NCBI GenBank assembly: GCA_021777835.1
Contig: JAJYDC010000001.1
Coordinates: forward strand, 124,001-188,000
Source: Bacteroidota bacterium
GTDB taxonomy: Bacteria > Bacteroidota > Ignavibacteria > Ignavibacteriales > Ignavibacteriaceae
Direction: 5' to 3'
Length of the DNA: 64,000 bases
A program made the position numbers and the translations under genes. Below, piece by piece: positions 32,418-37,083 of the stretch. The notes beneath the pieces were generated by a model, which did no database searches, was not told where the DNA came from, and saw nothing but the letters and a program-made list of their open reading frames with translations. How positions within the stretch are numbered: the first letter of the stretch is position 1; every line of letters starts with the position of its first letter.

Positions 32418-34103
32418 CTAAGCAAGGTAGGCTTTCAGTAGCTTTTCATTGTCGAGTGAACTTACTAGTAGAGCCTCGTCATAATTAGCAGGTTTTTCAG
32501 AATCACCAAAGAAGTCTGTACTTGTTCTATCTTTTTGTGTAATTGATTTTGCTTTTTCGACTGAAAATACAGAAAGCCTCTCTACAATAATATTAGCGCC
32601 ATTTTCTGCATCCACCTTGCCTTCAACTAGGTATGGTCCCATTGATAAAGTTTGTTCAGCATACACTTGATATGTTTTTGGAAACAACACAGCTTCGAAA
32701 GTCCCGGTAAGATCTTCGAGCGAAAGGAATTTCATTACCTCTCCTTTGCTTGTTAGAATTCTCTTTGATGCCATATACCAGCCTATCATTTTTACTTTGC
32801 GGTTATGGTAATTTTGCATATCTGATGAGTCGACAACATTGATTGTCTTAATTTCGTCTTTAAATAATTGAAGCGGGTGTTTTGTAACCATATACCCAAA
32901 TGATTCATATTCGTAGATACATATTTCTTCAAGGCTGAACTGTCTGTCTGTGATTGCCTCTTGCTCAAGCTTTGACTGCTCATTAGCGAAAAGATTTCCG
33001 TTTATGCTATCGTTTAGTTTTTTGTTGTTGAAATAGATATCTAAATATCTAAGTAAATTTGGTCTAGTTTTCTTAAAGCAATCCATGGCGCCGCATTTAA
33101 TAAGTATCTCAGATTGTATAAAACTTAAATTTGTTCTTTGAAGAAAATCTTTAAGCGACAGGAATATGCCATTCTTTATTCTTTCATTTATAATTATATC
33201 TGAAGAATCTTGTTCAAAATTTTTAATAGCTACAAAGCCGATTCGCACCGTATTATTTTCCCCTCGATACTCATAGTCACTTTGGTTAACGGAAGGCAGG
33301 AGAACTTTAATTCCTAGTCTCCGGCACTCACTTATGTAAACTGCAGAAGAATAATAGCCGCCGCCGTTAGATAAAACACCTGCGAGAAACTCGGCTGGAT
33401 AATGAGCTTTAAGATATGCCACCTGAAATGAAAGAACGGCGAATGATGCGCTATGTGCTTTGCAAAATGCATAACCGGCAAATGATTCGATCTGTTTCCA
33501 AAGTTTCTGTGACACCTCATCTGAATAGCCTTTGTTTTTGCAGCAGGTAAAGAACCTATCGACGATCAGTTCCATGGCTTTATGGGAGCGCATCTTTCCG
33601 CTCATTGCCCTTCGAAGCAGATCGGCCTCTTCAAGAGTTAGGCCGACAATATGATGTGCGACTTTTATAACATCTTCCTGGTAAATCATAACCCCATAAG
33701 TTTCGCCAAGATATTTTTCCATTTCCGGCAGTAGATATTTTCTTCGTTTCGGCTCCTTATGACGTTCAATAAATTCCTTCATCATACCGCTTTCTGCAAC
33801 ACCCGGGCGGATTACAGAAGATACTGCTGTTAGTAATTCAAAATTATCACAGTGTGTTCTTTTAAGAAGCGACCTCATTCCGGGGCTTTCGATGTAGAAA
33901 CAGCCTATAGTATTGCCTTCCCGTATCAGTTTCTTTGTAGCATCATCAGAGAAAACTCTGTCATACTCAAATATATTAAATCCGGATTTCCTGATTATTT
34001 TAGGAATAGCATCAAATATATGGGAAATACTAGCAGTTTGAGACAGTTCGTAAGCCGGTATATCCGCCGAAATAGTCTTGCTTATATTTATAATTTTCTT
34101 CAT
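32418..34103 (-). CDS. C-terminal half of a split DnaE-type DNA polymerase
   Basis: Starts where a normal DnaE/DnaE2 chain continues past its palm: residues 55-80 (FSDDATKKLIREGNTIGCFY) correspond to the DDP-x-T-x-x-x-x-x-x-GDTVGVFQIES segment. It continues through IRPG, YGVMIYQEDVIKVAHHIVG, EADLLRRAMSGK (fingers), FAGYAFCKAHSASFAVLSFQ, the C-domain up to YRGENNTVRIGFVAIKNF, and an OB fold near residues 425-520 (KMIGWYMASKRILTSKGEVM). The three catalytic palm aspartates are absent here and lie in the separate gene at 35340-36992. No intein C-fragment precedes it. Transcribed divergently from dinB with a LexA-like box in between. The 561 residues look intact. Confidence 0.85.
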   Translation of the reverse strand: MKKIINISKTISADIPAYELSQTASISHIFDAIPKIIRKSGFNIFEYDRVFSDDATKKLIREGNTIGCFYIESPGMRSLLKRTHCDNFELLTAVSSVIRPGVAESGMMKEFIERHKEPKRRKYLLPEMEKYLGETYGVMIYQEDVIKVAHHIVGLTLEEADLLRRAMSGKMRSHKAMELIVDRFFTCCKNKGYSDEVSQKLWKQIESFAGYAFCKAHSASFAVLSFQVAYLKAHYPAEFLAGVLSNGGGYYSSAVYISECRRLGIKVLLPSVNQSDYEYRGENNTVRIGFVAIKNFEQDSSDIIINERIKNGIFLSLKDFLQRTNLSFIQSEILIKCGAMDCFKKTRPNLLRYLDIYFNNKKLNDSINGNLFANEQSKLEQEAITDRQFSLEEICIYEYESFGYMVTKHPLQLFKDEIKTINVVDSSDMQNYHNRKVKMIGWYMASKRILTSKGEVMKFLSLEDLTGTFEAVLFPKTYQVYAEQTLSMGPYLVEGKVDAENGANIIVERLSVFSVEKAKSITQKDRTSTDFFGDSEKPANYDEALLVSSLDNEKLLKAYLA

Positions 34104-34111
34104 ATTTAGGT

Positions 34112-34123
34112 AAACATTTGTTC
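34112..34123. promoter_or_regulatory. LexA-like SOS box in the divergent promoter
   Basis: AAACATTTGTTC differs at one base from the GAAC-N4-GTTC pattern of DinR/Bacillus-type LexA boxes; the wider 16-mer GTAAACATTTGTTCAC keeps 12 of 16 positions symmetrical. It begins 4 bases downstream of the -10 of the minus-strand promoter, which suits a repressor. Whether this lineage uses that type of box is not known to me. Confidence 0.45.
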
Positions 34124-34126
34124 ACT

Positions 34127-34155
34127 ATATTATAAAATAAAAAAACCATTTTCAA
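34127..34155 (-). promoter_or_regulatory. Candidate sigma-70-type promoter of the DnaE C-half gene
   Basis: On the minus strand, TTGAAA (34155-34150), a 17-base spacer and TAATAT (34132-34127). It would start transcription near 34120, inside the LexA-like box and about 17 bases before the ATG. Bacteroidota often use other -10/-33 elements, so this is tentative. Confidence 0.35.
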
Positions 34156-34188
34156 TAGCTAAATCAATAGAAATTGACAGTTTTTAAG

Positions 34189-35331
34189 ATGAAAACGATT
34201 TTCCACCTTGATATGGATGCTTTCTTCGTTTCAGTAGAGCGAGTTCTTGATTCTTCATTGGAAGGTAAGCCGGTAATTGTCGGCGGCGATCCTTATGGCA
34301 GAGGAGTGGTGGCGGCATGTAGTTATGAAGCCCGTAAGTTTGGTTTGCAATCCGGTATGCCGATTAGAACAGCATTCCGTTTATGCCCGCAAGGGATTTA
34401 TCTTCATGGGCATGGAAAGGAATATGAGCGCTACTCAAATATTGTAAAAGAAATCTTAGAAAGTTATTCCCCTACAGTGCAGCAAGCGTCAATAGATGAG
34501 TTTTATCTTGATTTTACGGGCTGTGAGATAATATATGGGACAGCTCTTTCATTAGCCCAAAAGATACAATTTGACATTTGGCAGCAGTTTGCTTTACCAT
34601 GCTCAATCGGAATAGCATCTAATAAAACCATAGCTAAAATCGCATCAGATTATAAAAAGCCTAAAGGCATAACCTTAGTAGCTCAAGGCAAAGAAAAAGA
34701 ATTTTTGGCTCCTCTTCCTATCGAAAAGATACCGGGTATAGGTAAAAAAACCTTTCCGTTACTTCGCGCACGCGGCTTTAAGACTGTGGGTGATATTGCA
34801 AACTCATCGCCGGATTATCTTTCAGTTCTTCTTGGCAAGTTCGGTAATGAACTTTGGGAGAAAGCTAACGGAAATGGGAGTGAGATTCTTACAATTGAGC
34901 GTGAGAGAAAAAGTATCTCTAAAGAAACAACATTCGGAACAGATATTGTGGATAAGGTTGCAATCGAGATAAAACTTTTTGAGCTTACAGGCAAAGCATC
35001 TCAGCTTTTACGGAATGAAAATTTACAGGTATCAACCGTATCGATCAAACTGCGTTATTCTGATTTCGTAACAGTAACAAGGGCCAGAACAATTATACCT
35101 ACCGATGACGACAAAGCTATTTTTAATATTGCTGTTGATCTCTTTCGCAAAGCATTCACGCGCCGGGTAGGCATTAGGCTCATTGGAATTCATCTTAGTA
35201 AGTTGAGTTATTTCGGCGAGCAGGAAGTTTTATTTGAAGATGAGAATATAATTCGCAAGCGAATGTTGCGTGCTGTAATGAAGATACGCGACAAATACGG
35301 TTACCAGGCAATTCATATTGGAAAGACTTAG
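34189..35331 (+). CDS. dinB: Y-family DNA polymerase (DinB/Pol IV type)
   Basis: Error-prone translesion polymerase. With the ATG at 34189 the start MKTIFHLDMDAFF is at the normal place (Asp8 and Asp10); the in-frame TTG at 34174 would add five residues. The second catalytic motif is intact: YSPTVQQASIDEFYLDFTG, with Asp103 and Glu104, so this is an active polymerase and not an ImuB-type inactive homologue. KIPGIGKKT near 178 is the DNA-binding hairpin. A QEVLF motif near residue 347 fits the beta-clamp binding consensus QxxLF. The stop is 8 bases before the DnaE N-half gene, so they are co-transcribed. Confidence 0.93.
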   Translation: MKTIFHLDMDAFFVSVERVLDSSLEGKPVIVGGDPYGRGVVAACSYEARKFGLQSGMPIRTAFRLCPQGIYLHGHGKEYERYSNIVKEILESYSPTVQQASIDEFYLDFTGCEIIYGTALSLAQKIQFDIWQQFALPCSIGIASNKTIAKIASDYKKPKGITLVAQGKEKEFLAPLPIEKIPGIGKKTFPLLRARGFKTVGDIANSSPDYLSVLLGKFGNELWEKANGNGSEILTIERERKSISKETTFGTDIVDKVAIEIKLFELTGKASQLLRNENLQVSTVSIKLRYSDFVTVTRARTIIPTDDDKAIFNIAVDLFRKAFTRRVGIRLIGIHLSKLSYFGEQEVLFEDENIIRKRMLRAVMKIRDKYGYQAIHIGKT

Positions 35332-35339
35332 GAATTATT

Positions 35340-36992
35340 ATGTTCTCTTTACATGTCCATTCGAATCATTCTCTTTTAGAAGGGACAATTCCGGTGGAAG
35401 AGCTAGTCTCATTTGCAAAGATATCCGGGAGCCGGTATGTTGCACTTACGGATACAAATTCGATGCACGGATTAATTCAATTTGCCAAATTAGCGAAGGA
35501 ACAGAACATAAAGCCTTTGCTAGGAGTTTGGATTGATGATCCCGACGATAAGAATCTTAATGCTATCTTCATTGCAAAAAATAATGAAGGGTACTCACTC
35601 ATCTGTAAAATAATCACTTCCAGGAAACTGAAAGAAGATTTTTCCCTGGTCGATATTTTTTCTCAGTCACTTGATAATGTGTTTGTCCTTACTTCATCAA
35701 TTGAGCTTCTTGAAAGATTAAAGATTGATTCTTCATTAAGGCAAAACCTATTCATCGAGCTGGTTATTACCGGTAAGCAAAGAAAGAAAACCCGTGAGCT
35801 TTACGATTATGCCCGAACTAATAATCTTCAAATAGCTGCTTCTCACCCGGCTTACTTTATCAAGCGGGAAGACTTTCTTCTACACAAAGTTGTAGCGTCT
35901 ATAAGGCTAAATACTACACTAGATAATATTCCGCCCGGGGAAGTTGTTGATGAAGAATATTTCCTTAAGACTCCGGATGAATTAAGAAATGATTGGCGAG
36001 CATTACCGGAAGCTATTTGGAATGTTGAAAGAATTGCGCAAGCTTGCAATATAGATCTTCATATCGGCGGATATAAATTCCCAACATTCACACTGCCTCC
36101 GGGGGAGACTGCATTTTCTTTCTTATGGAAAATCTCTTTCCGCGGGCTGGAAGAAAGGTATAAACCTATAACAGAACAGGCAGTAAAACGGCTTCAATAT
36201 GAACTTGAAGTGATCGATGAATTAGGATTTTCAGACTACTTTTTAATAGTTTGGGACATTGTTAATGAAGCGAAAAGGAGAGGAATGATGCATATAGGGA
36301 GAGGTTCTGCAGCAAACAGCCTAGTTTCATTTTGTCTTGGCTTTACGGAGGTTGATCCACTTAAATATAACCTATACTTTGAACGTTTTTTGAATCGCGG
36401 GAGGACCTCACCACCGGATATTGACCTGGATTTTAGCTGGAAAGAAAGAGACGAAATAATTAAATATGTCTTTGATAAATACGGTTATGATAGGGTTGCG
36501 ATGATTTCGACAACAGTTACATTCAGAGCGCGATCTGCTTTTCGGGAAGTAGCAAAAGTGTTTGGCATTTCCGAGGGGGAAATCTCCAAGTACAGCAAAT
36601 TCATTCCCTGGACGAGTGCCAAAGATTTAACATCTATTGCTGAAAAATTCCCTGAAGCAAAATCACTTAACTTCCAAGTAGAGCCGTGGAAAACAATAAT
36701 ATCTTTAGCCGCTAGGCTATCAGGCTATCCAAGACATCTAAGCATTCATCCAAGCGGAATCATAATAACCCAATCTAAGATAACTGACTATGTTGCACTG
36801 GAATTTGCAAAGAATAAAGGAATTGGATTAATAATTACCCAGCCAGATATGTATTCAGTAGAAGATATCGGTTTGATTAAAATTGATTTATTAAGCCAAC
36901 GTTCTCTTGGTGTTATTAAGGACGTGATGAATGAAGTTAATAATAATCATAAAACTTCTCCGGATAGTGTAATTGTGCATCAATTAAATTAG
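35340..36992 (+). CDS. N-terminal half of a split DnaE-type DNA polymerase
   Basis: Carries the PHP domain and palm. Residues 1-270 or so are the PHP domain (SLHVHSNHSLLEGTI; ALTDTNSMHGLIQF); the usual TDH is TDT here, so at least one metal ligand is altered. From about 275 the palm follows: IGRGSAANSLVSFCLGFTEV, PPDIDLDF with the first two aspartates, and GLIKIDLLSQRSLGVI with the third. The chain ends about 25 residues after that point, where other DnaE proteins run on into the fingers; the fingers and C-domain are in the gene at 32418-34103. No intein N-fragment follows. AGGA precedes the ATG; dinB is 8 bases upstream. Confidence 0.85.
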   Translation: MFSLHVHSNHSLLEGTIPVEELVSFAKISGSRYVALTDTNSMHGLIQFAKLAKEQNIKPLLGVWIDDPDDKNLNAIFIAKNNEGYSLICKIITSRKLKEDFSLVDIFSQSLDNVFVLTSSIELLERLKIDSSLRQNLFIELVITGKQRKKTRELYDYARTNNLQIAASHPAYFIKREDFLLHKVVASIRLNTTLDNIPPGEVVDEEYFLKTPDELRNDWRALPEAIWNVERIAQACNIDLHIGGYKFPTFTLPPGETAFSFLWKISFRGLEERYKPITEQAVKRLQYELEVIDELGFSDYFLIVWDIVNEAKRRGMMHIGRGSAANSLVSFCLGFTEVDPLKYNLYFERFLNRGRTSPPDIDLDFSWKERDEIIKYVFDKYGYDRVAMISTTVTFRARSAFREVAKVFGISEGEISKYSKFIPWTSAKDLTSIAEKFPEAKSLNFQVEPWKTIISLAARLSGYPRHLSIHPSGIIITQSKITDYVALEFAKNKGIGLIITQPDMYSVEDIGLIKIDLLSQRSLGVIKDVMNEVNNNHKTSPDSVIVHQLN

Positions 36993-37041: not shown

Positions 37042-37083
37042 AGCCTCCAAGATTTAGAGAAATCCCGGAGGCTCCTTTTTTTT
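37042..37083 (+). terminator. Intrinsic terminator after the DnaE N-half gene
   Basis: AGCCTCC (37042-37048) pairs with GGAGGCT (37067-37073); inside it GATTT pairs with AAATC around AGAG. Eight T follow (37076-37083). It also lies at the end of the convergent S9 peptidase gene. Confidence 0.9.

Follow-up and report, generated by a model that had tools for sequence, protein, structure and literature searches.

C-family DNA polymerases are usually treated as one-chain enzymes. Polymerases in pieces are nevertheless known: the split DnaE of cyanobacteria is the replicative enzyme, and the PolB of Methanothermobacter is made as two polypeptides without an intein and with no damage-controlled half that we know of. 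Among accessory enzymes, the ImuA-ImuB-DnaE2 cassette is LexA-regulated, and its ImuB is catalytically dead. The two-polypeptide PolB is described in PMC7776575, and DnaE2B-PolY-RecA is described as a putative mutasome of Bacteroidetes in PMC12926913. Here we describe a locus in a 64,000-nucleotide stretch of an Ignavibacteriaceae genome (GenBank assembly GCA_021777835.1, contig JAJYDC010000001.1, positions 124,001–188,000, forward strand; hereafter the window), at which an accessory polymerase of the DnaE2 type is encoded by two intact genes, an N-half and a C-half, on either side of dinB. This natural division is kept across a bacterial order, a departure from the one-chain view, and a LexA-like box of a type common to the lexA promoter, new here, marks the C-half. 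Judged from sequence, the halves probably constitute a two-chain DnaE2-type polymerase that works with DinB and RecA and may be completed, upon DNA damage, by a LexA-repressed C-half.

The N-half (35340–36992, plus strand, 550 residues) begins 8 bp past dinB and carries PHP and palm/thumb regions (Pfam PHP, E = 3e-20; DNA_pol3_alpha, E = 8e-83) with the catalytic aspartates, and it ends 27 residues past LSQRSL. On the minus strand, the C-half (32418–34103, 561 residues) carries the fingers (DNA_pol3_finger, E = 9e-38), tandem HhH (HHH_6) and an OB fold, whose Pfam match stays under the cut-off (21.7 of 27 bits) and whose region in the predicted structure aligns to OB folds. The C-family domain order PHP, palm/thumb, fingers, HhH, OB is complete, but spread over two open reading frames (ORFs) in place of a single polypeptide. 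An original prediction, made from the letters of the window, had read the locus as one polymerase of about 1,110 residues in two divergent genes around an intact dinB, with all three palm aspartates in the first gene and fingers plus OB fold in the second. These points hold: the halves sum to 1,111 residues, and the aspartates (PPDIDLDF, KIDLL) all lie within the N-half. It had also put the start of the C-half shortly before the counterpart of GDTVGVFQIES; the counterpart, GNTIGCFYIES, is present, but it begins at residue 63, with some 62 residues ahead of it. Between the halves, dinB (34189–35331, plus strand) encodes a Y-family polymerase that looks active, with catalytic motifs DMDAFF and SIDE and a RecA-NT-like C-tail resembling, when compared by eye, the N-terminus of the RecA of the same genome; the RecA-NT motif is described in PMC6511836. 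Its ORF (34174–35331, 385 residues) opens at a TTG at 34174, and the ATG at 34189 is the likely start because orthologues align from that methionine.

Comparison with solved structures places the cut where it had been predicted, at the junction of palm and fingers. In structure-profile mapping, the best N-half stretch ends at residue 577 of E. coli alpha (Taq 638) and the best C-half stretch opens at 592 (Taq 643), its profile spanning 592–1055; the cut therefore coincides with the palm/fingers boundary. The predicted structure of the N-half (mean predicted local distance difference test score, pLDDT, 81) aligns to residues 6–582 of E. coli alpha (2hqa) over 536 residues, with Z 31.5 and a root-mean-square deviation of 3.5. 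The C-half model has a mediocre mean pLDDT of 66 and reaches Z 16–20 to Pol III alpha chains; given this score, and aligned ranges that start at 354–418 in several Pol III rows, it supports the fold alone. The pattern goes far beyond chance, since each half has matches among solved DnaE chains and turns up again in many genomes.

The genome of the window (3.64 Mb, 95 contigs, 98.4% complete) has, in these searches, one other DnaE match, a full-length protein in an ORF of 1,161 residues on a separate contig. We looked for a full-length dnaE that would account for one half as a decayed copy; this one is just 32–35% identical to the halves, so neither derives by decay from this replicative DnaE. 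In a quick tree of 22 rows, which leaves out rows L173, L175 and L382, six varied DnaE1 fall on one side (support 100) and the split forms on the DnaE2 side, together with unsplit relatives and two plasmid genes annotated as error-prone DNA polymerase, one of which adjoins ImuA and a Y-family gene. One large clade holds both the split forms and an Emticicia plasmid dinB-dnaE pair. As is usual in DnaE2 (PMC12926913), the N-half has a degenerate PHP metal site (LTDTN versus LTDHG in two DnaE1 of the group, with no Glu at their GME position). Against NCBIfam PRK05672 (cut-off 939 bits) the halves score 363 and 260 bits; because four unsplit relatives reach just 595–721 bits, this cut-off fits the branch poorly. 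The proposed translesion, DnaE2-like setting next to a Y-family polymerase is supported.

Searches were run against 149 genomes belonging to the class and 164 belonging to the order, the latter with strict limits (E 1e-100 and 1e-90) that short fragments escape. Within the order, each half was found in 102 genomes: 92 hold both, 10 the N-half only, 10 the C-half only and 52 neither (Fisher p = 2e-22, without kinship correction). Sister strains with an unsplit gene were sought, and there is no unsplit copy among the 102 matches listed per half in the order, in which the longest open frames are 593 (N) and 628 (C) residues. Among the best 80 rows of a C-half alignment scan of named genomes, Ignavibacteria-type loci have separate C-half genes, and relatives in KSB1, Rokubacteria, Nitrospina, Krumholzibacteria and Bacteroidia are mostly single genes of about 980–1,180 residues where the contig is uncut.

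Fast trees were built from halves with a long enough aligned span, shorter ones being omitted, and in them 28 Ignavibacteria-type N-halves and 55 C-halves each form one clade with full support, sitting among DnaE2 relatives that are mostly unsplit. L162, a separate case, is excluded from both sets and L170, which is cut by a contig end, from the C-halves, though an ORF rule had labelled the two 'split'. The nearest unsplit row in the N tree is a KSB1 protein (support 95, or 92 in the tree with DnaE1), whose gene lies 153 bases past that of a Y-family polymerase of its own; the position is left open in the C tree. Distances among N-halves and among C-halves correlate (r = 0.70, 26 genomes), none of 5,000 permutations being as high. 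One fully supported clade per half rules out a recent or strain-specific break, and the best explanation is that the split arose once, before the divergence of the Ignavibacteria families that carry the split halves. Outside this clade, the second DnaE of G081 (family f21; L162, 1792–4911) is likewise broken where palm meets fingers: an in-frame stop is followed after 24 bases by a new start. G120, of the same genus, has one long frame at the corresponding place; L162 is either a split that is beginning independently or an error in the sequence.

The arrangement of the genes is far less constant than the cut. The halves lie on different contigs in 52 of the 92 genomes that hold both and more than 10 kb apart on one contig in six (40 kb to 3.3 Mb of linear distance); adjacent layouts comprise 15 divergent pairs, as in the window, 11 tandem pairs with C before N, five in native order and three convergent. 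The second half had been thought to have been inverted to the other side of dinB. The divergent layout is real, yet it is one of several, the split is old and gene order is labile. On the same strand as the N-half and at most 400 bp from it, dinB is found in at least 32 genomes, a lower bound, as about half of the dinB places were typed, namely those on contigs with a half. This adjacency suggests that the N-half retains the ancestral position next to dinB and that the C-half relocated. A Y-family polymerase with a RecA-NT-like motif, as in DnaE2B-PolY-RecA, is adjacent here, and dinB is present in 85 of the 92 genomes with both halves versus 13 of the 52 with neither. At one locus (L065:8103–8726, G113), an NYN-domain gene lies between C-half and dinB.

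Both halves are maintained under purifying selection. The ratio of non-synonymous to synonymous substitution rates (dN/dS) between the window and G160 is 0.053 for the N-half and 0.087 for the C-half; between G029 and G113 it is 0.057 and 0.075. PDxDxDF is present in all 28 N-halves and a KIDLLSQR-type motif in 26, both misses being contig-end truncations. C-halves keep the FCKAHSAS-type motif in 48 of 55 cases and LRRAMSGK in 52 of 55, most of the remainder being close variants; these finger motifs presumably contact nucleotide and DNA. Some copies look damaged. The C-then-N tandem pairs L137 and L140 have an N-half with a changed GRGSAAN palm motif and may be losing activity, and in family f12 fragmentary or frame-broken halves stand at L091 (G011) and L090/L165 (G060), while G051 and G041 of that family retain long copies of both.

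The original prediction missed a regulatory asymmetry between the halves. The lexA promoter of the same genome holds two 20-base palindromes of the TAGTG-N10-CACTA type, 26 bases apart (G000:C54:79329–79374; L235). An imperfect box of this type, a predicted LexA-like operator without assigned strand, lies between C-half and dinB at 34108–34127, 4 bp from the C-half start codon; it scores 16.6 and is the sole match of 14 or more, the threshold used, in the window. Genomes with the halves apart, which contributed no sites to the scoring matrix, number 58, and 58 C-half and 52 N-half starts were read in them; the six unread N-halves either begin at a contig end or have a match that omits the initial residues. 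Fifty-five of the 58 C-halves have the box ahead of them, but not one of the 52 N-halves does; in paired genomes, it stands at the C-half in 50 of 52 and at the N-half in 0 of 52. For most N-halves the reading covered about 1.4 kb of upstream sequence; short stretches include those of G160 (473 bases), G199 (267), G218 (911), G228 (300), G260 (1,009) and G267 (914). In G160, the nearest relative, the box scores 13.3 and was counted as a miss. A matrix made from the two lexA boxes alone also separates the sets (N maximum 11.2; C lower quartile 17.1, median 18.7). Across 1,826,350 bases, all from loci chosen for polymerase halves, 53 of 57 motif matches are at a C-half, and the other four include one site twice.

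Eight genomes, five of them among the 52, were searched whole with one mismatch allowed: lexA was marked in six and the C-half in six, G177 gave no match and G192 gave two additional places. The window's own genome has no further site beyond lexA with this pattern, the window box needing two mismatches, hinting at a small LexA regulon. The C-half, which bears an operator type common with the lexA promoter, is a candidate member of the LexA (SOS) regulon.

These results are best explained by one accessory, DnaE2-type C-family polymerase that is associated with a Y-family polymerase and translated as two separate subunits. The N-half would supply the PHP scaffold, palm and catalytic metals, and the C-half the fingers, for incoming nucleotide and DNA, with the HhH and OB fold. 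The two would dock without help from an intein, at the interface that palm and fingers share natively, and the active enzyme would carry out translesion synthesis together with DinB and RecA. The predicted need for assembly from two chains draws support from co-inheritance, purifying selection, the lack of an unsplit match among those listed for the order and the lack of intein-like ends. After a single origin of the split the genes would have scattered, and LexA would repress the C-half promoter, so that supply of the fingers half would be limiting. In genomes that encode the halves at separate places, a boxless N-half would be steadily expressed and DNA damage would supply the missing C-half, completing the enzyme; in the window, the operator, between the C-half and the dinB–N-half pair, could repress both sides. 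The split and its conservation, the co-occurrence of the halves, the selection on them and the distribution of the motif are observed; docking, catalysis, LexA binding and steady N-half expression are what we infer. We consider it evenly balanced whether the result is a complementation-gated polymerase, in which the catalytic half would be ready but inert and SOS would make the fingers half only, switching on mutagenic synthesis through completion of a split enzyme instead of production of a whole one. LexA in these bacteria may control little besides itself and the C-half gene.

Several observations weigh against this scheme. Relatedness inflates every p-value, and one half occurs alone in 20 of the 164 genomes, six of these 20 being at least 95% complete. 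Seven of the eight sites in the scoring matrix are themselves C-half promoters, although the lexA-only matrix separates the sets as well. The strand-wise pattern matches in the eight whole genomes (0–5) compare with 0–2 for a reversed control, and the two in the window's own genome, both at lexA, with two for the control; with the reversed control nearly as frequent, the argument rests on the positions of sites and not their numbers. The box is also absent from 10 of 20 adjacent-pair stretches, two of the 10 with little upstream sequence, and the boxless pairs include four of five in native order and six of the 11 in C-then-N order. In family f12 every C-half stays below the box threshold, no box was found in the window genome's own recA promoter, and the altered palm motif in L137 and L140 indicates that some copies may be decaying.

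Could the halves simply be pieces of a broken, decaying dnaE2 that survive by chance, or products of assembly? Broken frames in L148 and L165 and the changed palm motifs would fit this, yet artefact or decay is unlikely because 92 of 164 genomes hold both halves and none of the listed matches is unsplit. The identical cut in these 92, including the single-contig genomes G113, G119, G177, G180, G188 and G192, which hold both halves, led us to reject an assembly artefact; dN/dS of 0.05–0.09 and an operator retained before 55 of 58 lone C-halves speak against decay, and we regard this account as highly improbable. Equally improbable is post-translational ligation of the chains through a split intein, for which cyanobacterial DnaE is the classic case (PMC3919608, PMC6390638). 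A Pfam scan found no intein family in either half, and the break-side ends are variable and poorly conserved, with 15–46 residues past KIDLLS in 26 N-halves measured and 18–85 ahead of IGCFYIE in 52 C-halves (the shortest a contig-end cut); unsplit relatives space the two motifs by 43–44 residues in four of five cases and by 80 in the fifth. Intein halves would require more residues than these ends hold. The Pfam scan and the short, variable ends led us to reject a trans-splicing intein.

The halves might instead have parted in function, with the C-half now a DNA-binding factor induced by damage, the N-half a PHP-palm protein, and no joint polymerase. Their differing regulation, scattered genes and the 20 single-half genomes lend this some weight, and the completeness of six of these keeps it in consideration; co-occurrence in 92 genomes, polymerase motifs kept on both sides (PDxDxDF, LRRAMSGK) and purifying selection on each half make it distinctly unlikely. 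Somewhat less unlikely is a true two-chain polymerase with an incidental SOS asymmetry, its N-half responding to damage by way of a different motif or of an operon promoter farther away. Only a single motif was scored, over the roughly 1.4 kb read for most N-halves, which leaves room for such control, but six scanned lone N-halves neighbour purD (two), a chorismate synthase gene, a nucleotidyl transferase gene and a TonB-like gene (two), and the pattern in the eight genomes marked lexA, the C-half and just two other places, both in G192.

Two further predicted elements flank the genes. A sigma-70-like match (34127–34155, minus strand) points toward the C-half with its -10 hexamer abutting the operator; it is a consensus match alone, and the region's 20 such matches against 15.3 ± 3.8 in shuffles are weak on their own. 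A terminator-like hairpin with a T run (37042–37083, plus strand; -15.8 kcal/mol, z -2.7) lies 3' of the N-half, where the terminator scan lists the opposite-strand reading alone.

A DnaE2 divided in this way would be a ready two-piece system for separating palm from fingers, and split and box together suggest SOS control acting by the supply of half an enzyme. Annotation may take the halves for fragments or for two polymerases. In the open-licence PMC text searched, we came across neither an intein-free split DnaE nor SOS control that acts on one polymerase half, and the available passages of PMC3919608, PMC6390638, PMC8565304, PMC6511836, PMC7776575 and PMC12926913 do not describe a split DnaE2. 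'Split' stands in three places in the available text of PMC12926913, none on a DnaE2 in two pieces, and the 'split cassette' of PMC3919608 refers to ImuA-ImuB-DnaE2 genes residing at two loci. The tally in that paper includes one Ignavibacteria genome with DnaE1+DnaE2; because some fragmented sequences were rebuilt there, and fragments without an intact active site removed, the split case was possibly folded into its counts.

Cyanobacterial DnaE is likewise encoded in two genes (PMC3919608, PMC6390638), but it is spliced into one chain, whereas the enzyme here is accessory and its halves showed no intein. The PolB of Methanothermobacter is also divided into two proteins (PMC7776575), but it is B-family and archaeal. 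The ImuA-ImuB-DnaE2 cassette, for example on a Shinella plasmid, joins DnaE2 to a Y-family partner as this locus does, but its DnaE2 chain is whole, and the DinB here keeps its catalytic motifs. DnaE2B-PolY-RecA likewise ties an accessory DnaE2 to a Y-family polymerase that seems active and bears a RecA-NT motif (PMC12926913); its DnaE2 is one chain, whereas that of these Ignavibacteria comes as two, often unlinked.

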